Origin: a virus
DNA: 31,946 nt
Direction: 5' to 3' (one strand)
IMG/VR virus record: IMGVR_UViG_3300025070_000009
Span: 1-31,946 of that record
The position numbers and the translations under genes are program-made. Shown here piece after piece: positions 1 through 31,946 of this stretch; the stretch's first letter is position 1; every line of letters begins with the position of its first letter. Below the pieces are notes generated by a model. The model was given only the letters and a program-made list of their open reading frames with translations, did no database searches and was not told the origin of the DNA.

Positions 1-127
1 AGTCCTCACCTACCCAACCTGTGTTGAGGGTGAAGCGTTTTCTACCATTGGTGTTTATGCGTTGGTACTTGTGAGCAGTCGTGTCGTAGGTGAATCCAGA
101 AGAACCGCTACTACCTAAAGACTTTCT
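1..127. repeat. Terminal direct repeat, left copy (circular closure)
   Basis: These 127 bases are identical to 31820-31946. An odd length of exactly 127 is a common maximum k-mer of short-read assemblers, so I infer an assembly overlap of a circular or circularly permuted genome, not a biological terminal repeat. It lies inside a single open reading frame that continues correctly when the ends are joined, which supports closure. Unique genome length is therefore 31,819 bp. Confidence 0.95.
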
Positions 128-1087
128 ATACTCATTCGTAGTAGTGCTTATTGTAGAGTCACTTCTTTTAAAGAAGGTAACACTCTCCCATACACCATTC
201 TTGTTTACGAACTGCATAACGCTTGGTGAATACTTGCTCTCACAAGTAGGATAGAATCTACGAGTGTCTAACACCGTGCCATCTTTGTCCTTTAATCTTA
301 TGTCGTAGTATTTACTATAGTTCAAAGGCTCACCTACGCTATCCAACCAAGTAGTAAGGTTATTGATTCCACAAGGTAATAGCATCACTCTCTCTTCAGC
401 CTGTAGACCTTGTAGTTGTGCTTCAGTAATAGGTATAGTAACATCATATTGTAAATCACTTAATACCTCTACTTCCTTTAGTCCGATATTTGCACAAGCA
501 CTACCTCCCTCAACAGTACCACCATCTGCCAATACTCTATCCTTATAAGCCCAATAGATGTCATAACCCTCACCCCACTTACCGAGATATACAGGCACAA
601 CCTCGTTACCAGAGTCTTTAATGTATTTAACTGCATTGACACTTGCGAATCCTTTGTTCACCTCTTTGTTAGCCGCCTCAATGAATATGTGATAGCCATT
701 ACTTGCCTCAAAGATTTCCGAGCTTCCTGTATCGTTAACCGTTACAGGTGGGTCTGCTTTGTTCTGGTAGTTGATTGTGTAATCTATCTGTACCCATACT
801 ACGCTACCATTAGGTGCATAGGCTACAGTTGTACCATCAAGGTTCTCGTAAGCATTAGATAGGTACTCTTGTACCATAGGAGCAATATCAAAGGAGACAT
901 CAGTTCCTGCAAATACATCTCTAAATAAAGTGTATTGTGCTGAAGAGGGTCTGGAAGACCTTGACCCCTCCCATATGTATACTTCAAACTCTACATCTGT
1001 TAGAGATGTAGCAAAGGCAGAATACCCTGCCGTAACATATATCGGGCTTCTTGCTCCTACTAAACTTGTTGGTGTGATTATACTCAT
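1..1087 (-). CDS. Large tail structural protein, 5' part (gene wraps round the window ends)
   Basis: ATG at 1087 (protein starts MSIITPTSLVG) overlaps the TGA of the upstream connector gene as ATGA. The frame stays open to base 1 and, after joining position 1 to 31819, continues to a TAG at 31656-31658, giving 416 residues. I see no signal peptide or membrane segment. The protein is rich in beta-type sequence with many T, S, V and Y residues. It sits between head-tail connector genes and another large tail protein upstream of the tape measure in the late operon, so a tail or baseplate component is the best inference. I recognise no named domain. Gene finders that treat the window as linear will report only fragments. 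Confidence 0.85.
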   Translation of the reverse strand, partial: MSIITPTSLVGARSPIYVTAGYSAFATSLTDVEFEVYIWEGSRSSRPSSAQYTLFRDVFAGTDVSFDIAPMVQEYLSNAYENLDGTTVAYAPNGSVVWVQIDYTINYQNKADPPVTVNDTGSSEIFEASNGYHIFIEAANKEVNKGFASVNAVKYIKDSGNEVVPVYLGKWGEGYDIYWAYKDRVLADGGTVEGGSACANIGLKEVEVLSDLQYDVTIPITEAQLQGLQAEERVMLLPCGINNLTTWLDSVGEPLNYSKYYDIRLKDKDGTVLDTRRFYPTCESKYSPSVMQFVNKNGVWESVTFFKRSDSTISTTTNEYRKSLGSSGSSGFTYDTTAHKYQRINTNGRKRFTLNTGWVGED

Positions 1088-1650
1088 CGTTTGGTAAATT
1101 TCAAAAATTCATCTACATCCATAGAGACTGCTTTGAGTACCTCTTGAGGTAACTTATCAAACTCTAATCTAAATGGTGCTTGGAAGAACTCGCTCTTGGG
1201 AATCCCTCGTTGCTTAATACTTCTTGATATTAGAAAGGCTGCCCTATCAAGGTTCGCCTCTGTCTGCTTAACAAAACTCTTGGTCTTTAGGTCTCTTGCC
1301 TTTACTCTCTTTTGAGCCATCCAAGTTCTTATAGAACTCTTTGGAGGTTGCTTACCATCAAAACCAAATCTACTTCCATTAGGCACTTTATACTTTGTAC
1401 CATCTACCCCCTCATCAATATACTTACCATAGTCCTCCATAGTGAAAGACATAAGTAAGTGTACTCCTGTAGTGAGTGAGTAGTCTAAACTATCCTTTAA
1501 CTTTCCAGAGGATACTTGTCTTCGTCTCTTTTTCTTACCATCATTATAGGTAATAGTACGAGTAGCACCAAGATTTAGCTTCGCTGCCTTAATGACTCGC
1601 TCTGCAAATTGGCGTAAGACCCTCTCTGTATTTTGTGTTACTACGGACAA
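1084..1650 (-). CDS. HK97 gp10-like head-tail connector / tail completion protein
   Basis: 188 residues starting MSVVTQNTERVL. It has a basic amphipathic N-terminal helix followed by a segment with YGKYIDEGVDGTKY near residues 74-87, which resembles the 'Y..fiE.GT..' core of HK97 gp10-type neck proteins. The C-terminal half is basic and helical. It overlaps the preceding gene by 10 bp and ends in an ATGA overlap with the next. The order terminase, chaperone-like gene, connector, large tail proteins fits a neck or tail-completion role. Exact assignment (gp10 versus another neck protein) is inferred from weak motif similarity and position. Confidence 0.65.
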   Translation of the reverse strand: MSVVTQNTERVLRQFAERVIKAAKLNLGATRTITYNDGKKKRRRQVSSGKLKDSLDYSLTTGVHLLMSFTMEDYGKYIDEGVDGTKYKVPNGSRFGFDGKQPPKSSIRTWMAQKRVKARDLKTKSFVKQTEANLDRAAFLISRSIKQRGIPKSEFFQAPFRLEFDKLPQEVLKAVSMDVDEFLKFTKR

Positions 1651-2105
1651 GTGGTAATAGTGTTAGCTATGTCTATAGACAAGGTTAGATTCCAACCTAC
1701 CAATAGGTTCTCAAACCTATCCTCAAAAGGCTCACAACTTGGTGTGCCATTGAGTTGGTATTTATCCTGCATCAAGTTACCTCTCTTTAGTTGGCTTACT
1801 AAATCGTTAGCCGTTAGGAGTTGGGTGTTTAGAATGTCTTGCCTGTTATCTACCCCGTAGAAGATTTCTGCTTCATCTCTTGGGTCTTCCTTACTCACAT
1901 CAGCTACATCCATAAAGAGGATGCTCATAGAGTAGGTTATGCCCACATCATTGAAGGTCACACTATTTATCATAATATGTGACAAGGGGAATATAGTCTG
2001 CTTGTTGAGGTCTACCTCAAAGATGTCACCTTCTGTAACGGTGTTCACCTGCTTGTTAGCAATGAGGTGTTCTCTTATCTTGGTGGTTATATCGTAGAAA
2101 CTCAT
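1641..2105 (-). CDS. Probable tail terminator / tail completion protein
   Basis: 154 residues from ATG at 2103-2105 (MSFYDITTKIREHL). A short N-terminal helix is followed by alternating beta-type stretches and a C-terminal segment LLVGWNLTLSIDI that looks like a beta strand. No catalytic motif is visible. Size and position between the chaperone-like gene and the gp10-like gene match tail terminator or neck proteins of siphoviruses, which is the inference. The start is preceded by a leader sequence almost identical to the one before the gene at 23033-23365. It overlaps the next gene by 10 bp. Confidence 0.5.
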   Translation of the reverse strand: MSFYDITTKIREHLIANKQVNTVTEGDIFEVDLNKQTIFPLSHIMINSVTFNDVGITYSMSILFMDVADVSKEDPRDEAEIFYGVDNRQDILNTQLLTANDLVSQLKRGNLMQDKYQLNGTPSCEPFEDRFENLLVGWNLTLSIDIANTITTCP

Positions 2106-2128: not shown

Positions 2129-2380
2129 TTAGTGTTTAAGCATCTTTCTTTCTACATCTGCTTTCTCCTTGTCGTATATGAGTTTGGTAAGGCATTGCCT
2201 CAAAGGTAGGTTAGTTATAGAATCATATCTTGCTGCATCACCACCTGCTAAATGGTCTACGCTTCCATACCATCCCCACTTCCTTGAAAAGTTTGCGGAG
2301 GCTGAAAGGTCTGTAGTTTCTCCCCCTGTGAAGAGGTCGGGGTACTCTTCAATAACTTGTTGCTTAAACGATAAAAAAAA
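2129..2380 (-). CDS. C-terminal frameshift extension of tail assembly chaperone (GT-type)
   Basis: This frame has no start codon of its own at its beginning but stays open for 81 codons after the T9 tract (2373-2381) and ends at TAA 2129-2131. It encodes FKQQVIEEYPDLF, then NFSRKWGWYGSVDHLAGGD, a W-G-W-Y plus GGD pattern followed by NLPL..CL..L and a basic tail. That pattern is familiar from C-terminal segments in Bacteroidota phage tail-chaperone loci. A -1 slip on TTT TTT in the upstream frame joins it to residue 163 of the 201-residue protein, giving a 244-residue product. The alternative is that the T9 run contains a one-base error and the fused protein is the only product. Confidence 0.75.
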   Translation of the reverse strand, partial: FFLSFKQQVIEEYPDLFTGGETTDLSASANFSRKWGWYGSVDHLAGGDAARYDSITNLPLRQCLTKLIYDKEKADVERKMLKH

Positions 2381-2862
2381 AGCGTTGCACCTAATGCAAC
2401 ATCTAAAGGAAAGTCCGAATATCCATCCGTACCATTGTACGGCTCTACCTCATACAAGTCTCCCTTCTCTTTTGTTATGGGTCTATACAAGACCCCAACT
2501 GTCTTATGCAACATCTGCATATCGGAGAGGTAGGTATCTAAATCTATGTACTCACCAAAACTCATCTCTTCAAGGTTTGGTACAAAGCCATATTCTTGCC
2601 CTCTAAAGGACAATCTCCTTGTGAGTGGATGCTCTACACTAACCATCGTTAAAAGTTCGTTAGCGATGCTTAAAACATCGTCTGCTCTCATTGCGTGGGC
2701 TACCTTCAAGGGGATATTAGCGAATATCTCTAATGCCTTGAGTAAGGTGAAGGTTTGGTCACCCTCTACCTTGAGGAACTTTTGGTACTGCTCAATAGTC
2801 AGTTCCCTTGCGCTCTCTGGTAATTTAATCGTTACCTCTCTACCTAACTGCGTATCGCCCAT
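2257..2862 (-). CDS. Tail assembly chaperone, short (G) form
   Basis: 201 residues in the zero frame (MGDTQLGREVTIKLPESARE), overlapping the 3' end of terL by 23 bp. It is mostly helical with no membrane segment, as expected for tail assembly chaperones that coat the tape measure during tail assembly. After residue 163 the zero frame reads through low-complexity sequence rich in Q, S, T and P to a TAG, while the -1 frame carries much more protein-like sequence. A T9 slippery tract lies at the switch point. In the lambda G/GT paradigm the short form is in excess and the -1 product is minor. Annotation rests on architecture and position, not on a named motif in this part. Confidence 0.7.
   Translation of the reverse strand: MGDTQLGREVTIKLPESARELTIEQYQKFLKVEGDQTFTLLKALEIFANIPLKVAHAMRADDVLSIANELLTMVSVEHPLTRRLSFRGQEYGFVPNLEEMSFGEYIDLDTYLSDMQMLHKTVGVLYRPITKEKGDLYEVEPYNGTDGYSDFPLDVALGATLFFYRLSNKLLKSTPTSSQGEKLQTFQPPQTFQGSGDGMEA
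2373..2381 (-). other. Candidate -1 programmed ribosomal frameshift site (T9)
   Basis: The minus strand reads G CTT TTT TTT TAT CG in the zero frame. Both P- and A-site tRNAs on TTT TTT can re-pair after slipping back one base, and the next -1 codon is TTA, opening the 81-codon extension. I did not find an obvious strong stem-loop directly downstream. A homopolymer sequencing error is the main alternative. Confidence 0.65.
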
Positions 2863-3994
2863 AGTTCGGTCTTGTTAGTTTGTTAAATGTTGCGTATCTA
2901 AAAGCATCAATGGCGTGGTTAAAGGCATCTATTGGTTTGTTAAGCAACTTACCATTCTTATCCTCTACCCACTTGTAGTTTCTCATCTCCTTGACAAAGT
3001 TAACACCAGAGATGTGTAGTTTGTATCTCTTGAGGACATCAATACCAGCATTGATACTATCAGCACCTTTCTTCGTTGGCTTAATGTTCCAACCCATACG
3101 ATACAACTCCTCAATAGATTTAGGCTCGGCACTATCAGCAAATATCTCTGCTCGTCTATCTACCCCAAGTGCTTTCATCTTCTCCGAGATGTCTCTGTTC
3201 GTGAGGTTCGTCTCGTAAAGAAGTTCTTTTGCATAAAGGTTATGGTCATCACCATATACCGCCACGAGAGAAGTGGGGTCATTCGTGAAACCAAAGTCCA
3301 TACCATACGAGAGGAATTTAGCCGATTCGGGTACTTCCTCTTCCACAAATGTAAAAATCGTTGCCTTACTTTGACCCCTTTCACCCAATCCGTATATGCG
3401 CCAGTAATCCTCGTCAGTATCTTTGAGTCGCTCAATCTCTTCCACAATACTATTATCCAGAAAAGGATTATCCACATAAGTAGATTTAATAAAGGTAACA
3501 TCGTCTCTTGTGAGCAGCTTGTCATAAATCCAATGGAAGTCATCGGAAGGGTTGTAGTCAATGTATATCTTGTTCGTTGTACGAACGAGCAACTGGAAAA
3601 AGTCCTCCCAAGTAAGTTCATTCGCCTCATTGCAGAAGAGGTAATCCCTCCTTGCTCCCCTTTTCTTTTGGGGTTGGTCAAGGGATACGAACTCAATGAT
3701 GTTACCGTTGAGACGGTAGATGTGTTCACTCTTGTTGTGGTGCTTCTCATCGTATAGGTGCATATTGGTTAGTATCTCTATGAAGTCCCTCATCGCAGTC
3801 ATCTTCAGTGAGGGTAGAGACTTACGCACAATAGTAAAGACCTTGCCCTTCTCGGACAAAGCCTTAACGATGATTAGTTGTAGGAGTGAGTAGGTCTTAC
3901 CAGAACGAGTACCCCCTTGATTGATTATAATCTTGGTAGGTGCGTTCCAGTTCTTCTCAAATATCTCACTCGTCTGTATTGCTACGCTTGACAA
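2840..3994 (-). CDS. terL: Terminase large subunit
   Basis: 384 residues. The ATPase half has Walker A GGTRSGKT at 27-34 and Walker B-like YLFCNEAN at 118-125 (E123 as the catalytic acid). The C-terminal nuclease half has three acidic sites in the usual RNase H-like order: D233 in GMDFGFTNDP, D287 in IFADSAEPKS, and D363 in NHAIDAFRYA. It powers DNA translocation into the prohead and cuts the concatemer. The length is within the usual range, slightly short. It overlaps the small subunit gene by 29 bp. A second long minus-strand frame inside it (3175-3750) is a shadow. Confidence 0.95.
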   Translation of the reverse strand: MSSVAIQTSEIFEKNWNAPTKIIINQGGTRSGKTYSLLQLIIVKALSEKGKVFTIVRKSLPSLKMTAMRDFIEILTNMHLYDEKHHNKSEHIYRLNGNIIEFVSLDQPQKKRGARRDYLFCNEANELTWEDFFQLLVRTTNKIYIDYNPSDDFHWIYDKLLTRDDVTFIKSTYVDNPFLDNSIVEEIERLKDTDEDYWRIYGLGERGQSKATIFTFVEEEVPESAKFLSYGMDFGFTNDPTSLVAVYGDDHNLYAKELLYETNLTNRDISEKMKALGVDRRAEIFADSAEPKSIEELYRMGWNIKPTKKGADSINAGIDVLKRYKLHISGVNFVKEMRNYKWVEDKNGKLLNKPIDAFNHAIDAFRYATFNKLTRPNYGRYAVR

Positions 3995-6004: not shown

Positions 6005-6157
6005 TCAGTTTATACCCTTACTTGTATCATTAAAGGTTTTGCGTTCTATCCATCTTGCATACATCTTCGCTGCCCAAGCATTTCTCTGCATCTTGTTAGG
6101 GTACACCTTTCTTAACCTCGCATTTGCAATGCGTAGGAATTGGTTCATCTTGTTCAT
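6005..6157 (-). CDS. Hypothetical basic protein, 50 aa
   Basis: ATG at 6157 overlaps the TGA of the HNH gene as ATGA. The protein begins MNKMNQFLRIANARLRKVYP and is strongly basic with W28, W36 and many R/K residues, so nucleic-acid binding is plausible. Its end, RKTFNDTSKGIN, contains the KTFN seen at the ends of the neighbouring cassette family, so its 3' end may be a recombination product of that array. Confidence 0.6.
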   Translation of the reverse strand: MNKMNQFLRIANARLRKVYPNKMQRNAWAAKMYARWIERKTFNDTSKGIN

Positions 6158-6399
6158 AGTAATTTGTTGTGAATGGTTTGTAACATCTCTTTGTACTGTG
6201 GGTAATCACCATACTTGATATGGCAAGGGCGGCAGACCGCCATAAGATTCTCTATGACATCTTTGGTCTTACTGCCTCCACTACCTCTATTGTCTATGTG
6301 GTGTATGTCGTTGGCTCGTGTCCCACAAACCTCACAACCTATGAAGTCATCTAACACATAGCCGAAGTAGTCCATATATATCTTGGTGTGCTTTTTCAC
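6154..6399 (-). CDS. HNH nuclease domain protein, 81 aa
   Basis: A minimal HNH fold with zinc-binding C22-x2-C25, the catalytic pair in NDIHHID (H33, H34), N51 in ENLMAVC, and C56-x2-C59-H60. This is the complete signature of a Cys4-type HNH nuclease in a very short protein, with little beyond the core. It sits directly after the RecE-like exonuclease with ATGA overlaps on both sides, so it belongs to the DNA-processing set and is not an inserted homing gene. Roles could include host DNA degradation or recombination. Confidence 0.85.
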   Translation of the reverse strand: MKKHTKIYMDYFGYVLDDFIGCEVCGTRANDIHHIDNRGSGGSKTKDVIENLMAVCRPCHIKYGDYPQYKEMLQTIHNKLL

Positions 6400-14084: not shown

Positions 14085-14116
14085 CAAATTTATTTACAAC
14101 CAACATAGAGAGCAAA
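14085..14116 (-). promoter_or_regulatory. Main early promoter (Bacteroidota consensus)
   Basis: Minus strand TTTG at 14116-14113, 20 bases, then TAAATTTG at 14092-14085, a perfect match to TTTG-N(17-23)-TAnnTTTG. The TTTG box is the last part of the T10 tract of the upstream terminator. It is the only consensus promoter upstream of the early genes and is expected to be read by host RNA polymerase straight after infection. Confidence 0.8.
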
Positions 14117-14138
14117 AAAAAAAGAGGCGAATGCCTCT
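14114..14138 (-). terminator. Intrinsic terminator (third hairpin of the hub)
   Basis: Minus strand AGAGGC, loop ATTC, GCCTCT, then ten T residues. It lies just before the early promoter, so it stops read-through from the lysis operon into the early operon on the circular genome. Confidence 0.85.
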
Positions 14139-14234: not shown

Positions 14235-14263
14235 AAAAAAAAAGAAAGGTGGGATAACCCACC
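14235..14263 (-). terminator. Intrinsic terminator at end of lysis operon
   Basis: Minus strand GGTGGG, loop TTAT, CCCACC, then TTTC and nine T residues. It is 29 nt after the holin gene and is the first of the tandem hairpins ending late transcription. Confidence 0.9.
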
Positions 14264-15840: not shown

Positions 15841-16217
15841 TATACTAACTCGTCTTCACTTGGCTCTGGAAAGTACTCTGGATGCAACACCTTACAAGCC
15901 TCTGTCCATTCCGCAATAGCAGAAGATGAACCGAAAGTATGAACACCTAATGGCGCACACCATACCATAGCACTATCCCAAGACTCTAATGGCTCTCCAT
16001 CCCATAGTACATCTATATGGTAGGTAGAAGATAGTACGGGTTCAGTGATTACTTCACCTTCTTCATCGTATGTACCTTCAGTCTCTACCAAGTTACCGAG
16101 ATGTACGATAGCGTGAGAGTGAGTAGGGTTACCTTCCTCATCGTGTGGTAAGGCATTCAGTTTAGTTGTTGCTGCTCCTTTAGAGCCGAAGCTGTATTTC
16201 CTGAAGACTTTTTTCAT
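15840..16217 (-). CDS. Hypothetical late protein, 125 aa
   Basis: It starts MKKVFRKYSFGSKGAATTKL and carries DEEGNPTHSHAIVHLGNL and HIDVLWDGEPLESWD. Mostly beta-type, acidic at the C-terminus (EPSEDELV). Located after the tail-fibre genes and coupled to the Cys-rich gene, so it may be a virion or tail-associated protein. No motif recognised. The GIY-YIG gene ends in an ATGA overlap with its start. Confidence 0.65.
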   Translation of the reverse strand: MKKVFRKYSFGSKGAATTKLNALPHDEEGNPTHSHAIVHLGNLVETEGTYDEEGEVITEPVLSSTYHIDVLWDGEPLESWDSAMVWCAPLGVHTFGSSSAIAEWTEACKVLHPEYFPEPSEDELV

Positions 16218-16801
16218 AATCTTTTTATTCCGTATTTATTGTTTTTAACCTTATTATTCGCTGCTCTTTGAACAACACCATATGTAACATTAAGTGCTTC
16301 TGCACATTCTTTTATCGTATCAAAAGTAGTGTTTAAGTATTTACAATACACTTTTGTCGTATGTCTTGCATCACCACCAAACTTTCCTTTTAAAGATTCA
16401 CTGATTGACTTGCGATGCTGTTCACTTTTTGTAAATCCTTTTGCAGCGGCAGACATCTTTCTTTTTGTAGCTTCGCTTGTTACTTTTCCTTTATGCGCTT
16501 TACTAATCTTTTCTTTAATTTCCGAAGTATATTCATATTGACCTCTACAAGCATTTGTTAGATTATAGGATTCTTTGTCTTGAGATGCATTTAATTCAGT
16601 TAGCATAAATTCTTCAAGTTCTGCAAAGTGTTCACCCGAATACAATATCTCTCTTACAAAGGCTTCTGGTCGCTTCTTATACGCTTTTAGAAAATAAGTA
16701 CCGCTACCTACATATCCGTCATTAACATCTCCTTTATGGCATCCTATGTAATACATACCATTAGAAGTGTCAATCCATTTATATACGAAACCTGTCATCA
16801 T
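16214..16801 (-). CDS. GIY-YIG homing endonuclease
   Basis: 195 residues. GFVYKWID...GMYYIGCHKG (4-24) is the GIY-YIG start, with R50 and E64 as candidate catalytic residues and SYNLTNA around 78-84. It is followed by NUMOD3-like DNA-binding repeats (TSEATKRKMSAAAKG, about 103-117, and SEQHRKSISESLKGKFGG, about 121-138). A NUMOD1/IENR-type helix-turn-helix ends it (FDTIKECAEALNVTYGVVQR). It is A/T-rich compared with neighbours, as expected of a mobile gene. It lies between a tail-fibre gene and the 125-residue gene. Confidence 0.9.
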   Translation of the reverse strand: MMTGFVYKWIDTSNGMYYIGCHKGDVNDGYVGSGTYFLKAYKKRPEAFVREILYSGEHFAELEEFMLTELNASQDKESYNLTNACRGQYEYTSEIKEKISKAHKGKVTSEATKRKMSAAAKGFTKSEQHRKSISESLKGKFGGDARHTTKVYCKYLNTTFDTIKECAEALNVTYGVVQRAANNKVKNNKYGIKRL

Positions 16802-16817: not shown

Positions 16818-18602
16818 TTATAGTGTAGTTAAATCTGCTAATTCAGCGTTTGTTAGTCGTGTCTTGAATAGTAAGTTTTGTTTTACAGGGTATTCATATC
16901 CTGTAGCCCAATAGTTACCAATATCAATTCTATTTAATGTTGGAACATTAGCATTTGCATCACTACCAACTTGAGTGCCGTTGATGTACATAACATAATC
17001 ATCTTGTGCATAAGCAACTGCTATTTTTTTAATTCCATCACTTGGCGAAGTAGGAGTTGTAATCAAACCTTGAGCAGAACCCGCAACACGAATGTTGCAA
17101 TAAATAAAATTAGATGTGTAATCATATCCTATGTGTATACGATTATTTGATGTTCCATCGGATAAAGTCATATACATTTGGTCAGCATCAGTATCAGTAA
17201 AATCTATCTCTGCGTAGAAAGAACCTTCATTTTGACCAATTAAATCGGTTGCAGATGTTTTACTACAAGTTTCAGCTACACGACTCACACTACTCCCATA
17301 GGTAGGGATGTAGGATGTTGGGTAGCTTCCTGCTTCTACTTGCGCTCCGTATATATAAGCACCATTAACGCCATTACCCGCCCAAGAAACACTTTGAACA
17401 TCTCCACTTGTCCAATTTGATGCAGCAGCGTAAAGACCAAATCCATTTGGTGTTGCAGAAGTAAAAGTAAATGTGCCACTAATCCGATACCAACCATTTC
17501 CGTAATTTTCAATCTTTCCGTTTGATGCCGTACATCCACCCGTTGAGTATTCCGTGATAATACTATTGTCGGTAAAGTCAAAACCAATAGATGCTCCCGT
17601 TGTAGCCGATTCTCTTAAAGCATAGTAATTATGACCATTAGGCTTAATGAAAATGCTATGCGTTGCCGTTTGAATACTTGCGGATTGAGTATCATAAATT
17701 CGGTGAAGCGGAGTACCCGTAGTGTCGGGAACAAAATTATAAGCGTTTTGTAGACCTTCTGGAGATATTGCTTGATTAGCTGATATTGCTGAATTATTAA
17801 CTGCATATGGAGTTCCATTAAAATACTCACTATTACCCATTACATTAGTCCTTTGTGGCTCTAACAATAGTGCAGGACACGAACTATCCGTATAGTCCAA
17901 TCTTGGTACATTATCAGTAATACCTCCATATACGGCAGATGTAGTTGTAGTAATCACCTCTTGCGCTATCAGCCCTTGATTTACTTGGGCATCTTGGATG
18001 TAGATAGTTCCTGTACCACTTGTCCCAACTCCGTTATTGCTTGGCACTGGGTAAAATAAAACTCTGTTAAGACTTTCGTTGAATATAATAGTGCATCGGT
18101 AATATCCGTTTCCTACGGCTTCAATTTTAGTATCTATAATAGCACTATCAACTGCGCCAACCGAACCGCTTGATAAATCAAAATAAGCACCTCTATAAGC
18201 CGATGCAGAGTTTTGCACCCTCACAAAAATCCAATCAAAAGAACCAACCTTTGCGTATATTGAGTAGGATTGTACTCCGCTTGTTGAAATGTCTTGAGCC
18301 ACATAATTGAAAGCACCACCTCTTGAGGCTAACCAAGCATCGTTTGTACCATTATATCCTGCTTGACCTGAAGTTAAAGCAGTACCCGAATTATACCAAG
18401 TAGTGCTGAATGTATTACTCTGCAAGAGTTGATTACCTGTCTCCTTCTCTATATTACCATCTGCATTAACTCTCGTAGCAGCAGATGAACGAGTGAAAGT
18501 AAAATCACCATCACCATTAGTAGGCTTCTGCGAGTAGACCTTTCCTGTCTTTGTACCGCTTGGTATTAAGACCAAACTTGATTTGTCGTATATATTACTC
18601 AT
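16818..18602 (-). CDS. Tail fibre-like protein, paralogue B (594 aa, LamG-like C-terminus)
   Basis: It starts MSNIYDKSSLVLIPSGTKTG and then DFTFTRSSAATRVNADGNIE. An internal motif (PRLDYTDSSCPALLLEPQRT, near 240-260) and VEAGSYPTSYIPTYGSSVSR (near 425-445) are shared with the adjacent paralogue. The last 140 residues (SFYAEIDF...HIGYDYTSNFIYC) look like a concanavalin/LamG fold. A receptor- or glycan-binding tail protein is inferred. It is separated from the paralogue by three bases. Confidence 0.75.
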   Translation of the reverse strand: MSNIYDKSSLVLIPSGTKTGKVYSQKPTNGDGDFTFTRSSAATRVNADGNIEKETGNQLLQSNTFSTTWYNSGTALTSGQAGYNGTNDAWLASRGGAFNYVAQDISTSGVQSYSIYAKVGSFDWIFVRVQNSASAYRGAYFDLSSGSVGAVDSAIIDTKIEAVGNGYYRCTIIFNESLNRVLFYPVPSNNGVGTSGTGTIYIQDAQVNQGLIAQEVITTTTSAVYGGITDNVPRLDYTDSSCPALLLEPQRTNVMGNSEYFNGTPYAVNNSAISANQAISPEGLQNAYNFVPDTTGTPLHRIYDTQSASIQTATHSIFIKPNGHNYYALRESATTGASIGFDFTDNSIITEYSTGGCTASNGKIENYGNGWYRISGTFTFTSATPNGFGLYAAASNWTSGDVQSVSWAGNGVNGAYIYGAQVEAGSYPTSYIPTYGSSVSRVAETCSKTSATDLIGQNEGSFYAEIDFTDTDADQMYMTLSDGTSNNRIHIGYDYTSNFIYCNIRVAGSAQGLITTPTSPSDGIKKIAVAYAQDDYVMYINGTQVGSDANANVPTLNRIDIGNYWATGYEYPVKQNLLFKTRLTNAELADLTTL

Positions 18603-18605
18603 ATC

Positions 18606-20279
18606 TTATTCTACTAAAGAGTTACATTCAGCATTGGTTAATGCGATTGGAAATGATAATACTTGTTTGACTGAATTTTCAGTAAACGCACCTCTTAAAT
18701 TAATTTTGTCTAAATTTCTTGCAGTTGCAAAAGAACCCGATTGACTTGCTGGGCTTCCAGCATAGTTGTAAAACAAGGTATATGCAGTACCATCAATACG
18801 AATTACCCATTTATTATTGTCGCTTTGAATACCGCCCAAAGGATAATTTGAATCAATTTGATTGTATAGCCTCAAAGTACCAATAACATTTCTAATAGTT
18901 GCCGATGTTGTTGCACCACTCGTAATAAATTCCATAAATACTTTGTTGTTATCAATCGTGTTCAATTCTCCATTGAAGAAAATTGTATGTGAGTTGCCTA
19001 AAGAAATACTACCGCCTAAAGCCAATTCACCAGACCTCGTAACCGCAGAACCATATGTAGGTATGTAACTTGTAGGGTAACTTCCTGCTTCAATCTGCAT
19101 TCCGTATGAATAAAATTCAGTAGCAGTACCTCCCATTGAAAAATCTGCAACATACATTGCAGTTGTAGTACCACCAGTCAAATTAGTCGCAGTAACATCA
19201 AATCTTTGCCATTCGTTTGTAATGGTTACAAGTTTAGATGTAGAACCACCGCCACCGCCAAATCTACGGACTGATATTTCTATTGTAGTATTCTCTGAAC
19301 CACTTGCTGCTTTTAAATAAATAGAACCTGTATAAGCACCATCGGGTTGATTATTGTGAAAATAGACTCTATCACTTGCTCCTGCTTTTACAAACTTTGT
19401 TGCGTTATAACCACCATCTGGAGATAATGTTTCATTAGTATTTGATGTAATCGTACCTGTCCAATTTCCTACAACATAATCGCTTGAACTTACATATTCG
19501 CTATTGGTAACCACATTACTCCGTTGAGGCTCAAGTAAAAGAGCAGGACACGAACCACTATAATCTAATCTCGGTAAGTCCTCTAATATACCTGCTTGTG
19601 CAGTAGAAGCACCTGTCTCAATGTAGTCAGTAGCAACCAAGCCTTGCTCTAATTGAGCATCTTGGATGTATAAAGCAGTATTTCCTGCTCCTGCATAAGT
19701 AGGGTCATTATCCGATTGTGCGGATAAAAGAACAACTCTTGCAGCAGATGTTCTTGATGCCTCACATCTATACCAACCGCCTCCTACACTTGTAATCTTT
19801 GCATCAATGTAGTCAGAGTCAATAGTACCCAATGTTCCGTTTGCTAAATCAAAATAAGCGTAGTCCACATTTGCATCCTCGTAACGGAAAGCTAAAAAGT
19901 TTACTGCACCTGCTTTGGCATACACACTAAATGTTGCAACTTGACTTGAAGTAATGTTTTGAACTATTAAGTGTGTGCTATTGTTAGTGTTATCTACAAA
20001 TGCCCAAGCATCATTAGAGCCATCATAACCTGCTTGTCCGCTAACAAATGATGAACGAGTTTTACCCCAAGTTGCATCTCCAAAGTTGTTGCTATGTAAA
20101 ATATAGTTCTCTCTACCCTTCTCAATAAGACCATTAACATCTACCCTTGTAGCAGCAAGATTTGAACCCCTGCTAAATGTGAAGTCCCCACTACCATCAG
20201 TAGGGCGTATGCTATACAACTTACCATCCTTTACCGCACTCGGTATCATTACTAATGATGCATCCTTATACAGACTCAT
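18606..20279 (-). CDS. Tail fibre-like protein, paralogue A (557 aa)
   Basis: It starts MSLYKDASLVMIPSAVKDGK and has DFTFSRGSNLAATRVDVNGL. The motifs CPALLLEPQRSNVV (near 245) and IEAGSYPTSYIPTYGSAVTR (near 405) match those of paralogue B, as does the overall order. The C-terminal domain (about 425-557) is clearly different from that of B, so the pair share the scaffold but not the tip. It begins by ATGA from the preceding gene. A glycan-binding tail role is inferred. Confidence 0.75.
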   Translation of the reverse strand: MSLYKDASLVMIPSAVKDGKLYSIRPTDGSGDFTFSRGSNLAATRVDVNGLIEKGRENYILHSNNFGDATWGKTRSSFVSGQAGYDGSNDAWAFVDNTNNSTHLIVQNITSSQVATFSVYAKAGAVNFLAFRYEDANVDYAYFDLANGTLGTIDSDYIDAKITSVGGGWYRCEASRTSAARVVLLSAQSDNDPTYAGAGNTALYIQDAQLEQGLVATDYIETGASTAQAGILEDLPRLDYSGSCPALLLEPQRSNVVTNSEYVSSSDYVVGNWTGTITSNTNETLSPDGGYNATKFVKAGASDRVYFHNNQPDGAYTGSIYLKAASGSENTTIEISVRRFGGGGGSTSKLVTITNEWQRFDVTATNLTGGTTTAMYVADFSMGGTATEFYSYGMQIEAGSYPTSYIPTYGSAVTRSGELALGGSISLGNSHTIFFNGELNTIDNNKVFMEFITSGATTSATIRNVIGTLRLYNQIDSNYPLGGIQSDNNKWVIRIDGTAYTLFYNYAGSPASQSGSFATARNLDKINLRGAFTENSVKQVLSFPIALTNAECNSLVE

Positions 20280-20687: not shown

Positions 20688-21159
20688 CTTTGTCTGGGTA
20701 CATATCGTCATTCGTTGCTCCATTATATTCGGGATAGCTTGAGTTGTTAAAAGCCATAAAGTCAATAAACCTACGAGTGTAGTGTTCAGCTATATCTCTA
20801 TGCTTGTTGGTTAAGAAGTCCACCTCGTTCTTCTCCATAGCTATACTGTTCTCTGCCGTGTGCTTGTAAGCACCTCCATTACCTATCGTATAGGCAGCGT
20901 GAGGTAAATACTCTACCATAGCCCAATGTATCAACATAGGTTGTACATAGTCATCTAACAAAGTAGCGTAAGCTACAGGTAGAGTGTCTGCTACAATGTC
21001 ATCACGCAACTTGTCGTATAACTTTGTACCCAAGTAGTTTTGAATATGTATCTCCTGTGCAATCTCTATAAATTGCAGGAACTTATCGGAGTCTACATTT
21101 CCAGAGATTACGCTATTGCGTACTAAATCGTCTCTTTTTATGAATAATACCTTTGCCAT
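20659..21159 (-). CDS. Head-tail connector-like protein
   Basis: 166 residues (MAKVLFIKRDDLVRNSVISG), mainly helical, with NYLGTKLYDKL and WAMVEYLPHAAYTI. It directly follows the portal gene by TAATG, the usual place for gp6/adaptor-type connector proteins in Bacteroidota phages. No catalytic motif. Assignment is by position and general character. Confidence 0.6.
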   Translation of the reverse strand: MAKVLFIKRDDLVRNSVISGNVDSDKFLQFIEIAQEIHIQNYLGTKLYDKLRDDIVADTLPVAYATLLDDYVQPMLIHWAMVEYLPHAAYTIGNGGAYKHTAENSIAMEKNEVDFLTNKHRDIAEHYTRRFIDFMAFNNSSYPEYNGATNDDMYPDKDAVFNGWQL

Positions 21160-23036
21160 TATTTTCCGTAATTAGGGTGATGCCCTTGTCTTGGCATATC
21201 AATCGGTGCAGTAGCTACCTCTTTAGGGTTTTTAGGTAGCTTAAATCCTGCTCTTACCGCTTGGTTAACATTAACATATTTAGTTCCTCGTAGAGCATCT
21301 CCACCATACGGCTCACCGTTCTTCTTCATTTTCTTCTTGTAGATTCTACGCTCCCATCTATGGTAGCAGTTTACACCACCCTTGTACTTAAACAAAGAAT
21401 AGTTTCTACCCTTGTGTCCAAAGCTCTTGTTAACGCCTCTTGCACTCATCATACCAATATCCTCTTTGCGGTACAATTTCCCTTGAGATAACATAGTCTT
21501 GCAGAAGCTACGAGAAGAGCCTTTAGAAGTCTTCTTTGTACCCTTCACATACTTGTATCTTACCTTGTATATCTCGGAGTCTTGGTTACTGTCTTGTGTA
21601 GCGGATAAGTTGACTAATCCATTGAGGTATTCTTCAGTATCAAACTCCTCTGGTTCATCGTCTCCTACAACCTCTGCATCAATGAGTTCATAGCCCTCTG
21701 GCTCTTCCTCACCCAAGTCAGCCAATGCATCTAACATCTCGTGGGCTAACTCGTCATCAAGAAAAGGGCGGCTATCCTCGCTTAATTGTTCTATAGGTAC
21801 GCAGTTCGGTACTTTCTTGCCGTTCTTCATCTTCATACCGACCATCTCATAACCCTCCGTACAAGGGTCATCAGCATCCTTCAACTCGTCTTTGCATCCG
21901 CAGTCGCTACTCAACTCCTCTTTTACTTCCTCCTCCATATCAATCTGCAACTCTAAAGGTTGCAAAGTCTTGAAGTATAAGTTAAGGCTCACCTCATTCA
22001 CCGCAAGGATGTCATCACAAGCATCTAATATCAACTCTTGGATAGGTCTAACAACTGTGTTGTGGAATAAGAGACTTGCAGTCTTCAATTCATCAGCATT
22101 GTTACCCAATCCTGTATTGTCCTTAATACCCATCAACATAGGTGAAGTAACCCTATGGGCTACCATCAACTTACGCATACTCTCATCTGCCAAGAATTGG
22201 TACTGCTCACTTGCATCCGATAATTGTACAGGCTCAATACTTGCAGCCATCTCTTTGTTATCGTTAAATGCCAAGATGAACTTACCACTATTAGATGAAC
22301 CGCTAAACTTCTGTATGATTCGTCTCTCTATAAGCTCACGCTCTTCCTCCGTTGGTACACCATTGTTGAAGTTAATCAACATACTTGGCGATAAGCCGTT
22401 CTTAATGTTGTTGATGTGGTAGTTTGCTACCTCCTCTTCTAACTCTGCATAAGGTAGTCCCCCTTGATAGTCTACAGGTGAGTAGTAGTAGAATCCACTA
22501 CGATAAGGTTTGATACAATAAATCTCAAGACCCTCACCTTTCTCACCGTGACCAAACGCAGGGATGCGTACAGGCTCAAAGCCTCTCTTGCGAATCTTTG
22601 TCCAATCTTTAGAGTAGTAGTAACCACATACATCACCATCCTCGTTCATCTTCTCAAAGCGTAAGGTCTCAATAGGCATATGCTCTACTTGTACAATCTT
22701 ACTCTTGTCTTTATTGTAGATGACTTGGAATGCTGCTTGACCCATAGCCTTCAAATCAAAGGTCACCTTCCTCATACAAGTGCGAGAGAACAGAGACTTC
22801 ATCTGTGCATATTGGTCTGGCTTTCTTTGAGCATCGGTAGCGTATAGCCCCTTGCCGTAGATAAGCTCACTCATACCATTTATAATGGCATTGTTTGTAG
22901 CACTACCATTATACCTGTCTATAAGGTATTGGAAGTAATTATTGTCCTCGCCATAGGCTACCCACTGCTTACGATTGTCTTCTACAACCTGTGGGGTAGT
23001 ATGCGTTGCAAGGTTTACGATGCGTATATTGCTCAT
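21159..23036 (-). CDS. Portal protein with C-terminal extension
   Basis: 625 residues. The first 370 have the portal layout: N-terminal wing, SGKFILAFND, and the helical AHRVTSPMLMGIKDNTGLGN segment (about 293-312) found in portals. After an acidic, Cys-containing linker (370-490, including DCGCKDELKDADDPCTEGYE) a second domain begins at about 489 (KVRYKYVKGTKKTSKGSSRS, then YRKEDIGMMS and KGGVNCYHRWERR, 522-564). Similar fused domains are common in Bacteroidota phage portals; their role is unknown. The portal forms the DNA-entry vertex. Confidence 0.85.
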   Translation of the reverse strand: MSNIRIVNLATHTTPQVVEDNRKQWVAYGEDNNYFQYLIDRYNGSATNNAIINGMSELIYGKGLYATDAQRKPDQYAQMKSLFSRTCMRKVTFDLKAMGQAAFQVIYNKDKSKIVQVEHMPIETLRFEKMNEDGDVCGYYYSKDWTKIRKRGFEPVRIPAFGHGEKGEGLEIYCIKPYRSGFYYYSPVDYQGGLPYAELEEEVANYHINNIKNGLSPSMLINFNNGVPTEEERELIERRIIQKFSGSSNSGKFILAFNDNKEMAASIEPVQLSDASEQYQFLADESMRKLMVAHRVTSPMLMGIKDNTGLGNNADELKTASLLFHNTVVRPIQELILDACDDILAVNEVSLNLYFKTLQPLELQIDMEEEVKEELSSDCGCKDELKDADDPCTEGYEMVGMKMKNGKKVPNCVPIEQLSEDSRPFLDDELAHEMLDALADLGEEEPEGYELIDAEVVGDDEPEEFDTEEYLNGLVNLSATQDSNQDSEIYKVRYKYVKGTKKTSKGSSRSFCKTMLSQGKLYRKEDIGMMSARGVNKSFGHKGRNYSLFKYKGGVNCYHRWERRIYKKKMKKNGEPYGGDALRGTKYVNVNQAVRAGFKLPKNPKEVATAPIDMPRQGHHPNYGK

Positions 23037-26777: not shown

Positions 26778-27701
26778 TTAGATTTTGTCTAATGACTTCA
26801 GTTTGCTTTCCGCCCATCTCTTGGCACTCTTGCCACCCCATAGTAGATAGCTAATATATCCGCAAGACTTTGTGTCACCTTCTTCATAGTATTCCTCTGC
26901 TCTACTCAAGTAGCTATACATACGCTTAATAGTCTCAACACTTATAGCCTCACCTTTGGCTAACTGCTGCGCTCTAACCTTACCTACCTGTGTTGCACAC
27001 TTGTTATTCACCTTCTCGTTTAAAGCAATACCCCTCTTTGCATTGTTGCGTACCGAAGTGGGGTAATCCTTGTAGGATTCTAATTCAGTACGCTTACCCT
27101 TTTTTGTGCGGAGGTCGTTCTTAATGATTGCCTTGATAGCATTGAGTTGCTCCTCTGCTTTGTCCTCCTCTGGGTCTTGTTTAGATGCCTCTACCTTGTC
27201 AACGAAGTAACCCTCAATGCTAAAGCCTTTGACCTTACCACTCTTCACATAGTCGTTCCAAATCTCATCGTTGTGAACCTTCATACTAACCATCCAAGTG
27301 CCTACAGGTAAATTCATACCATACATCTTGCTCTTGTCTTGCTCACCTTCAATAATCCAACTCTCTACAACACTCAAGCCTGTAATGTCTATTTGGTGTT
27401 CTAATGTGGCTTTGTTTTGGTTGCCGTTGATGAAGAACAATTCACTTGCCTTTCTAACCGTGTCTTGCGAGAAGTAGATGTAATACTCATCTTCACCGCT
27501 TCTACGATAGATAGGCTTATTAGGTACAAGAGCTGCACCCAATAGAACACGCTTGTCCTCGTCAATGGTTTTTAATTCTACACGCTCCTCTTCCTTGAGG
27601 GCTACGAAGTCCTCCTCTATAGCAGGGGCTTCTACGATACTGATGGCTTGGATACCTGCTTGGAGGCTCTCCTCATCTAATAATAGTTCTACGATTCTCA
27701 T
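26778..27701 (-). CDS. Prohead protease (XkdF/HK97-type serine protease)
   Basis: 307 residues. The protease part has LEHQIDITGLSVVESWIIEG with H102 in the position of the catalytic His, and VKGFSIEGYFVDK with S161 as the likely nucleophile; E113 lies in VVESW. VGTWMVSMKV is the core strand. From about 208 a second, helical domain starts (YPTSVRNNAKRGIALNEKVN) and runs through VGKVRAQQLAKGEAIS and SYLLWGGKSAKRWA. That module is common in phage head proteins. It should cleave scaffold and capsid proteins during maturation. TAATG links it to the tape measure. Confidence 0.8.
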   Translation of the reverse strand: MRIVELLLDEESLQAGIQAISIVEAPAIEEDFVALKEEERVELKTIDEDKRVLLGAALVPNKPIYRRSGEDEYYIYFSQDTVRKASELFFINGNQNKATLEHQIDITGLSVVESWIIEGEQDKSKMYGMNLPVGTWMVSMKVHNDEIWNDYVKSGKVKGFSIEGYFVDKVEASKQDPEEDKAEEQLNAIKAIIKNDLRTKKGKRTELESYKDYPTSVRNNAKRGIALNEKVNNKCATQVGKVRAQQLAKGEAISVETIKRMYSYLSRAEEYYEEGDTKSCGYISYLLWGGKSAKRWAESKLKSLDKI

Positions 27702-29545
27702 TATGGGAATGATACTTGGTTAATTCTATTTCTATCTAATTCTTGTTGTGAGGTAACATCACTACCTACTACATATGCTCTCATAGGGTTCGCTTGTAGC
27801 GATTCCAATATAGCGTTTTGACCCGATGCACCTACTATATTAAATTGTGGTGAGGTGCTTGGTGCAGTAGGTGTTTGTATGTTCGTGTCTACACTACCAC
27901 TCGCTTGGAATTGTTGCCTTGCAATGGTAGCTATCTGTGCTGCACCTGTCGCTGCTGCAATACCTGCCTCAACAAACTGCGCTCCTGTAGCTAACTTAAC
28001 AGGGTTACCTCCTGCCGTAAGTGCCGCAGTAACGGCTTGTGCAGTATTAACTACCGCTTGGCTAATACCAAGTGCCTTATTTATTTTAAAGGCTTTCTTT
28101 GCTTGTTCTTCGTTGCCCGATAAGAATGCTTGTGCAAGGTCATTAAGTGCGCCTATGGCATCACCTGTCATCTGTAGTCTTGATTGTTGAACCTCTTGCT
28201 CAAGTTCTCGTCTCTTTTTCGCCTCTTCACCCTCTTGAGCAGTACGCTCTGCATTCAAGACATTGATTTCGCTAACCATATCTTGATAGGCTTGTGTACC
28301 TTCCTTGTATTGAGACTTCTGTAATTCTAACGAGGCAAGTCTGCTATCGTACAACTTCTTGTTTAACTCCTCCTCAAGAGTTAACTGCTTTTTTAAATTG
28401 GTCTCTGCTTCAATAGCTGCCTCTGCTTCTATCTCTGCAACCTCTTGTGCGTTCTCTGCTTTGCTTACCTCAAGGTCAAACAACTCTCTCTGTAGAGCCA
28501 TCTCATTCATCAACTGCTCACTACGGAATCCTGCTACTTGTGCTTGAACTCCTACAAGCTCATTCTGTGCAGCTAAATACTCCTTCTGGAACTCAATGTT
28601 GTTTTCGTCAAGAGTTAACTGTCGTGCTTTAGCATCTAATATGCGTTGAGCATTCTCAAGCATTGCATTCTCTTGTTCCTCTAATACTCCCTTTAGCTCG
28701 TTATTGGCTTTGATACGCTCCTCAATAGTAAAGCGTTCATCGTCTCTTACTTGTCTTAATTTCTCTGCTTGTAAGTCGTACTTCTCAATCAAGCCTTGTG
28801 CTAATACCTCTGCAATCTCTGCTTGTTTGTTAGTCTCGGTCATTGCCGCACCTTGCTTAACAGTCTCTACCACATAGTTAGAGATAGCCTTTGCAGCTTT
28901 GGTAGTACCCTCTGCAATCTTTTTAGCAGAGTCATCTACACCTGTAAGCACATCTACCATCTCTGTACCTGCGCTCTTAACACTATCCAATGCACCCTTG
29001 AAGTCTCCTGTGAAGAACTTTGCCATAGCATCTCCTACAAAGCCCAATACCTCCAACATAGATTGGAAGCGTTCAATGATGTTGTTCTTAATACCCTCAC
29101 CTAAAGCCTTAATGCTATCTACAGGATTCTCAAAGATGGTTTGAAAGAAATCTGCTATGCCTCCTATGTTAGCACTAATGAATTTAGAGAAGTCACTAAA
29201 TGCCACCTGCAAGGTGTTGAATGTAGTATTAAAGAAGTCTACTGTTTTCTGGTTGTTATCAAACAACTCACGCAGTATGTCCATAGCAGCTAAAAGAAGT
29301 CCAATACCTGCTGCTTTAATAGCTACACCTAAACCCTTGAAGCCTGTACCAAGTCCCTTGATACCCTTTTGGCTATCTTCAGCACTCTTACCAATGTCTT
29401 TAGTAGTATCGGCAATCTCGTTAATGCTATCAGCAGTCTTGTCTGCTTGAGTTTGGGAAGCCTTTAACGCATCAATGAGTTCGTCTAACTTCTGCTCAAG
29501 ACCAGAAAGGTCTGCACCTATAACTATGTTCTTCTCTATTGCCAT
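27701..29545 (-). CDS. Tail tape measure protein
   Basis: 614 residues. N-terminal coiled coil with TQADKTADSINEIADTTKDI; then GLGTGFKGLGVAIKAAGIGL, a hydrophobic stretch (about 66-90) as found in tape measures; then long A/E/Q-rich coiled-coil sequence, a hydrophobic A/G-rich patch near 515-560 and a Q/S/T-rich end. Length suggests a tail of the order of 90 nm by the usual 1.5 Angstrom per residue estimate, which is an inference. No lysozyme or peptidase domain is visible in it. It overlaps the 43-residue gene by 10 bp. Confidence 0.85.
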   Translation of the reverse strand: MAIEKNIVIGADLSGLEQKLDELIDALKASQTQADKTADSINEIADTTKDIGKSAEDSQKGIKGLGTGFKGLGVAIKAAGIGLLLAAMDILRELFDNNQKTVDFFNTTFNTLQVAFSDFSKFISANIGGIADFFQTIFENPVDSIKALGEGIKNNIIERFQSMLEVLGFVGDAMAKFFTGDFKGALDSVKSAGTEMVDVLTGVDDSAKKIAEGTTKAAKAISNYVVETVKQGAAMTETNKQAEIAEVLAQGLIEKYDLQAEKLRQVRDDERFTIEERIKANNELKGVLEEQENAMLENAQRILDAKARQLTLDENNIEFQKEYLAAQNELVGVQAQVAGFRSEQLMNEMALQRELFDLEVSKAENAQEVAEIEAEAAIEAETNLKKQLTLEEELNKKLYDSRLASLELQKSQYKEGTQAYQDMVSEINVLNAERTAQEGEEAKKRRELEQEVQQSRLQMTGDAIGALNDLAQAFLSGNEEQAKKAFKINKALGISQAVVNTAQAVTAALTAGGNPVKLATGAQFVEAGIAAATGAAQIATIARQQFQASGSVDTNIQTPTAPSTSPQFNIVGASGQNAILESLQANPMRAYVVGSDVTSQQELDRNRINQVSFP

Positions 29546-31663: not shown

Positions 31664-31946
31664 ACCTTGTATCAAATGCTTCTTCTACCTCAATGATGTA
31701 GTTAATCATTTTATCATTAACTGACTTCTGTAAGTTCAATGAGTTGGTAGTAACATTGACAGGTAGACCATCTAACATTACACGCTCACTCATTAACATC
31801 TGCTCCATAATAGTATCGTAGTCCTCACCTACCCAACCTGTGTTGAGGGTGAAGCGTTTTCTACCATTGGTGTTTATGCGTTGGTACTTGTGAGCAGTCG
31901 TGTCGTAGGTGAATCCAGAAGAACCGCTACTACCTAAAGACTTTCT
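31656..31946 (-). CDS. Large tail structural protein, 3' part (wraps to 1-1087)
   Basis: Bases 31820-31946 repeat 1-127. The frame from 1087 continues here (coding ...DYDTIMEQMLMSERVMLDGL... VEEAFDTRYV) to a TAG at 31658-31656. This completes the 416-residue protein whose 5' part is at the left edge. The end overlaps the next gene's ATG at 31663 by eight bp. Confidence 0.85.
   Translation of the reverse strand, partial: RKSLGSSGSSGFTYDTTAHKYQRINTNGRKRFTLNTGWVGEDYDTIMEQMLMSERVMLDGLPVNVTTNSLNLQKSVNDKMINYIIEVEEAFDTRYV
31820..31946. repeat. Terminal direct repeat, right copy
   Basis: Identical to bases 1-127 over its whole length. Most simply an assembly overlap that closes the circle. Confidence 0.95.

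Follow-up and report, generated by a model that had tools for sequence, protein, structure and literature searches.

A T-run of conserved length in a two-frame gene of Bacteroidota phages, and its probable use for programmed transcriptional slippage

We describe a gene, in a 31,946-nucleotide stretch of viral DNA that we call the window, where the reading frame changes at a run of nine T residues (T9). Nine T's are kept in nearly all of several hundred homologues, while their position relative to the codons shifts. We propose, with a probability of roughly 0.7, that a long form of the protein is made mainly by programmed transcriptional slippage at this run.

Results

Gene layout

The gene is on the minus strand. 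Its zero frame, for a short 'G-like' product, has 201 codons (2257..2862, with the ATG at 2862 and the stop at 2257). The sequence around T9 reads ACG CTT TTT TTT TAT in this frame, CTT TTT TTT TAT being codons 161-164. The proposed slip site is T9 itself, at 2373..2381 (zero frame CTT TTT TTT T). Note that T9 of the minus-strand gene is A9 on the plus strand. The -1 frame is then open for 81 codons and a stop (2129..2374, stop at 2131..2129). It encodes a 'T-like' extension, LSFKQQVIEEYPDLF...WGWYGSVDHLAGGD...MLKH*, giving a long form of 244 amino acids in all. Both products begin with a common N-terminal domain of 163 residues (2374..2862), and the tail of the short product lies over the extension (2257..2372). 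A first-pass annotation, made from the sequence alone, had listed a 201-codon zero frame, T9 after codon 160, an 81-codon -1 frame and a 244-residue product. Every figure holds on re-reading. Inside clear genes of the window, T9 is the sole A/T run of at least nine; two others (14114-14123 and 14235-14243) are both intergenic, between ORFs.

Upstream, the gene for the terminase large subunit (2840..3994, minus; Pfam Terminase_3, E 2.5e-27) overlaps the start of our gene by 23 nt. Downstream, also on the minus strand, are genes of 154 codons (1641..2105, phrog_30964) and 188 codons (1084..1650, phrog_29822). Homologues of these two lie downstream of the frame-switch gene in 265/282 and 260/282 loci, respectively, counting loci with enough sequence. 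The tape measure protein, which is the expected partner of a G/GT-type chaperone, is encoded at 27701..29545 (minus; phrog_1538 tail length tape measure, E 4e-11). The frame-switch gene is not directly before it. Four genes lie between the two, and the frame-switch gene comes after terL instead.

Some other features of the window are recorded here. Its ends carry an exact direct repeat of 127 bases (1-127 and 31820-31946), so that the record probably holds the whole genome, about 31.8 kb long. The gene at 1087..2 would then resume at 31946. The order of modules between 31675 and 21159 (minus) is odd; the tape measure gene (29545..27701) precedes an XkdF-like protease, a capsid candidate and the portal (23036..21159), with terL and the frame-switch gene further upstream. 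Two adjacent tail protein genes (16818-18602 and 18606-20279, minus) are paralogous, both matching phrog_5939 and sharing an N-terminal motif, perhaps as a result of fibre duplication. An HNH endonuclease and a NUMOD3-containing, homing-endonuclease-like ORF are found in the regions 6154-6399 and 16214-16801 (minus).

The -1 relation is shared by homologues

Homologues of both parts were gathered from IMG/VR, cultured phages and Bacteroidota genomes, and the -1 relation was tested on frames rather than on products. In a first set, all 84 of 84 distinct loci had the N-part and extension in the -1 relation across ACGCTTTTTTTTT. A wider set comprised 318 distinct homologues, all with a conserved N-part (163 aa). 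The extension was in the -1 frame in 316 of these, and the other two are cut by contig ends. Identity reaches down to about 29% at the amino acid level, the value seen for two isolated Nonlabens phages, P12024S and P12024L.

Long T runs mutate readily and are error-prone. Hence, the apparent frame switch might reflect a sequencing or assembly indel, a frame-disrupted pseudogene or a phase-variable tract. We give these readings a negligible probability. Because all 316 placeable homologues, isolated phages among them, share the -1 relation, an assembly indel is excluded for the family, as judged from the alignments. The same relation, together with selection on both frames (see below), rules out a pseudogene. 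Phase variation by replication slippage is ruled out too, since no run length found in any homologue brings the frames in line. The first-pass annotation had asked whether the run might really be T8 or T10, and whether homologues with both parts exist; they do.

Both frames of the overlap are selected

We compared the openness of the zero-frame tail with a null in which the -1-frame protein was held and synonymous codons were randomised. Across 45 representatives the tail is open for 21-83 codons, against about 5-20 typically expected by chance. The median p was 0.015 with pooled codon usage and 0.064 when codons were shuffled within each gene. In the overlap, third positions of the -1 frame coincide with second positions of the zero frame, and their divergence is lower than past the zero-frame stop. 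The values are 0.288 vs 0.441 for the window clade and 0.173 vs 0.347 for other clades, a reduction of about 35-50%. Together, the longer open frame and lower divergence argue that both frames are under selection, and that short and long proteins are both maintained. The extension had initially been singled out as protein-like for its W-G-W-Y and HLAGGD motifs, and these do form its best conserved stretch. However, the zero-frame tail, against which it was set, is not junk, staying open beyond chance.

The run keeps its length but not its register

Among the 318 distinct homologues, the run is T9 in 306, T10 in 11 and T8 in one, so that at least nine T's are present in 317/318. The heptamer T_TTT_TTT occurs in all 318, and none of its seven core positions is ever substituted. 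The sole T8 (locus L421, GTT TTT TTT CAG) is a natural test of reduced slippage.

All 318 homologues have T at the final (Z) position of the heptamer, where a change to C would be synonymous in both frames given the usual Phe/Leu pair. Other conserved Phe codons show 12-22 TTT/TTC changes on the tree, while the Phe codon of the slip site shows zero. With a rate taken from comparable Leu columns (4-8 changes), the probability of zero changes is 0.02 to 0.0003. The exception is another dual-coded Phe, the third codon of the extension, which is TTT in 132/133 homologues and TTC in none. Note that this TTT preserves a zero-frame TTA Leu codon and usually creates a stop in the third frame.

The edges of the run also change together. 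Three loci (L332, L441 and L452) have lost a T at the 3' end and gained one at the 5' end (Fisher 1.5e-5, uncorrected for relatedness). Conversely, in two loci (L334 and L400) the 5' T is gone (codons AGT and GCT) and an extra T stands at the 3' end (Fisher 9e-4, again uncorrected for relatedness). Hence, the run stays nine long across three codon registers, loss at one end usually being offset at the other. Both the edge and Z-base tests are limited by shared ancestry. The constancy of length across registers is drawn from a small number of independent changes among the phages and from several lineages of prophages. A need for a hydrophobic residue might have explained the 5' T. This is weakened by the Ala, Ser, Gly and Thr codons found there in T9 sites of another register. 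A run that keeps its length while its register floats would be expected were a nine-base homopolymer, rather than a codon heptamer, the functional unit. On these alignments, what is conserved is a stretch of nine or more T's with no fixed place relative to the codons.

RNA structure around the run

In the window clade, a hairpin, GTTGC-ATTAGGT-GCAAC (2384..2400, minus), is predicted 2 nt before T9. It has a 5-bp core, extends to 7 bp when the window sequence is folded and has a folding energy of -7.7 kcal/mol. The clade pattern is GTNGC..GCN'AC. At the varying V3/A3 pair, T-A and A-T switched jointly, 4/4 times on the tree, while the neighbouring third position shows nine free changes. The covariation score is 0.164, compared to 0.033 for shuffled sequences. 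The mean z is -1.8 in the window clade and about 0 elsewhere, so a family-wide hairpin is ruled out. We take the element to be a clade-specific upstream hairpin, weak and terminator-like by prediction. Downstream of the run, RNAfold z-scores, a method blind to pseudoknots, revealed no structure (mean z +0.19 vs -0.31 for the control). Inspection by eye identified no upstream Shine-Dalgarno-like element shared across the representatives. Note that clear stimulators are missing at many phage frameshift sites; their absence here only lowers the claim for a ribosomal event.

Prophage relatives differ at the switch

A profile of the extension found relatives in Bacteroidota prophages, most of which the N profile missed. 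T9 is again exact in several of these distant lineages (L523, L539, L541-L545, L546 and L554), at loci whose GC content reaches 57%. The register is mostly NNT TTT TTT TTR, with a first codon for Ala, Ser, Gly or Thr, and once GAC TTT TTT TTT. The same extension domain also occurs in a separate clade of Bacteroidota prophages (L532-L537 and relatives), where the run is T7 instead of T9. Here, the domain follows an invariant CATTTTTTTA, and a hairpin or a GGAGG lies farther upstream. This clade probably has a ribosomal version of the switch, going by its heptamer. In other relatives, an extension-like domain is part of a single unbroken ORF, and there is no homopolymer (L530, L531, L538, L547-L550 and L552). 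Of these, L531 is Elizabethkingia phage TCUEAP1, which was reached among cultured phages through a prophage query; tblastn of the extension itself against cultured phages gave no match.

Protein folds and profiles

The N-part and extension were folded as separate chains with AlphaFold2. The N domain has a confident fold (pLDDT 88.9), and the extension, for which remote homologues occur in Bacteroidota prophages, has a pLDDT of 82. All 40 N-parts scanned matched phrog_32199, and 8/40 also matched phrog_166 'tail protein' (E 1.3e-4). Curated chaperone profiles did not match the products of the gene, Pfam and PDB profile searches gave no match for either domain, and a PDB fold search gave none. 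In BFVD, the N domain matched mostly uncharacterised phage proteins, including one from P12024S; its similarity in fold to annotated tail assembly chaperones was weak (prob 0.90 and 0.85). Some single proteins, of 234-267 aa, matched both the N and C models, which is consistent with these being natural fusions.

Discussion

In the mechanism that we favour, RNA polymerase would copy T9 and the 9-bp rU:dA hybrid would slip. Some mRNAs would then carry U10 (or U7), from which ordinary translation would proceed into the extension. Transcripts with U9 would give the short form of 201 aa, while those with U8 would reach a stop within a few codons. Such a stop would come after two codons in 131/133 sequences, although the conserved F-K/R codons of the -1 frame leave little room for any other outcome. 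Given the third-frame stop that arises from the extension's Phe TTT codon, U8 transcripts would end at once. In the window clade, the nascent-RNA hairpin 2 nt before the run may aid the slip. The two forms, with 163 N-terminal residues in common and an 81-aa -1 domain in the 244-aa form alone, would act like lambda gpG and gpGT, coating the tape measure and recruiting tail-tube subunits.

Published work is in keeping with such a mechanism. T runs above 8 are in the range described for transcriptional realignment, and bacterial RNA polymerase slips in vivo at runs of nine A's or nine T's (PMC3711429; PMC1088944; PMC5009743), although these data are from other bacteria and may not hold for the Bacteroidota enzyme. 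In addition, slippage can be enhanced by a hairpin that forms in the nascent RNA 5' of the run (PMC5009743). Several aspects of our data lead us to favour transcriptional slippage. Nine T's are kept, whereas a -1 heptamer needs seven. The register floats while the length stays, in the phage family and in distant prophages alike. The Z base is never C, though U_UUU_UUC is among the efficient frameshift motifs in E. coli, as is U_UUU_UUU (PMC4066793). Finally, downstream structure was not seen, and the window clade has a covarying hairpin upstream. Note that shared ancestry lowers the effective number of homologue observations.

The main alternative is canonical programmed -1 ribosomal frameshifting. 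Two tRNA-Phe would slip on T_TTT_TTT, the extra T's being driven by coding or aiding the ribosome. The heptamer is perfect in 318/318 homologues, so ribosomes could slip here too, and U_UUU_UUY is efficient in E. coli (PMC4066793). The architecture is that of lambda G/GT (PMC5009743), and one prophage clade retains T7, so that the superfamily probably includes a ribosomal version. Furthermore, the direction is -1 without exception, which by a published rule favours ribosomal frameshifting (PMC3711429), although selection for a fixed short:long ratio could have the same outcome. The T8 homologue, and a hairpin that is weak and confined to a single clade, also count against slippage by polymerase. 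Yet seven T's would be enough for the ribosome, and at least nine are present in 317/318, in several registers and with compensating gains at the other end. Nor does the ribosome explain a Z base that is never C, and neither downstream structure nor a Shine-Dalgarno-like element common to the representatives was seen. We consider this alternative unlikely. The first-pass annotation had proposed just such a slip, on an odd heptamer. What stands of that proposal is a conserved programmed -1 change, giving a G/GT-like short and long pair just after terL. An ordinary ribosomal slip is unsupported because the T homopolymer, of at least nine, floats, no downstream stimulator was seen and the window clade has its terminator-like hairpin upstream. 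That both machines contribute, the product ratio being the sum of polymerase and ribosome slips, is very improbable. A T9 run is slippery for each, and homologous genes such as dnaX can differ in mechanism (PMC3711429). However, nothing demands a joint contribution, which from sequence looks the same as slippage led by polymerase.

Whatever the mechanism, the switch could be real and the protein another tail or neck component rather than a chaperone. We regard this as doubtful. In its favour, no chaperone profile or PDB entry matched, and four genes separate this one from the tape measure gene. Conversely, the short and long layout, the location between terL and the tail genes, the phrog_166 'tail protein' matches of eight homologues and the weak chaperone fold matches (prob 0.90 and 0.85) argue for a chaperone. 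Our analysis thus points to a G/GT-like tail chaperone pair as the most likely role. Since the gene is not directly before the tape measure gene, we say that it works like G/GT, and not that it is a proven member. The name 'tail assembly chaperone', given in the first-pass annotation, is one that we infer from layout, the curated profiles having given no match and the structural matches to annotated chaperones being weak. The gene is probably needed for building the tail of a marine phage.

The G/GT frameshift is textbook ribosomal recoding in tailed phages, and a dual tail chaperone made via a frame switch is already known. What is new is probably a T9 of conserved length, likely used in transcription, with a long selected overlap. 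Our searches of the open-access literature turned up no phage tail chaperone for which transcriptional slippage is reported. We think it likely, with slightly less confidence than for slippage itself, that polymerase slippage on T9, tuned by a terminator-like nascent hairpin in one clade, determines the relative amounts of the two chaperones in a large set of phages and prophages of Bacteroidota. The T7 and fused relatives would then show moves between transcriptional, ribosomal and unswitched expression. If so, across hundreds of phages of one bacterial phylum, a short and a frame-switched long chaperone are conserved while the route by which the frame is broken is not, as known for dnaX. It would also mean widespread phage use of programmed transcriptional slippage. 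In practice, our analysis flags a gene that annotation divides into two hypothetical proteins, for instance in P12024S.

Comparison with known systems places the gene between several precedents. As in lambda G/GT, there are short and long products with a common N-terminus, a -1 relation, a location near terL and tail genes, and conserved neighbours. Unlike lambda, where the site is a GGGAAAG-type heptamer, the site here is a T9 homopolymer. The overlap is long (21-83 codons in the window's family), longer than that of lambda G/GT, and selected in both frames. There is no detectable sequence relation, our gene is four genes before the tape measure gene and the mechanism is probably transcriptional. 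The lambda chaperones and the conserved G/GT frameshift were described by Xu, Hendrix and Duda (2004), as reviewed in PMC5009743.

Slippage at Shigella mxiE/spa13 and Thermus dnaX also involves a homopolymer of about nine A or T, a changed mRNA frame, and short and long products (PMC5009743; PMC3711429; PMC1088944). The difference is that our gene is probably for phage virion assembly, and its run length is kept across hundreds of phages. The Roseiflexus IS element (Penno et al. 2015, as summarised in PMC5009743) likewise has a nascent RNA hairpin directly 5' of the run. In that summary, T5C5 loses one C, whereas T9 would probably gain one U or lose two, and our hairpin is weak and in one clade only. 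By profile search, the extension domain is homologous to that of the Bacteroidota prophages L532-L537 and the fused L531 and L530. The former have a T7 heptamer and the latter a single in-frame ORF, while the window gene has T9. The Nonlabens phages P12024S and P12024L (genes 38-39 and 40-41; JQ823122 and JQ823123) share gene order, T9 and the -1 relation with the window gene, at 29% amino acid identity. Their zero-frame tail is shorter (25 codons), they have no comparable upstream hairpin, and in both the annotation splits the frame-switch gene in two.
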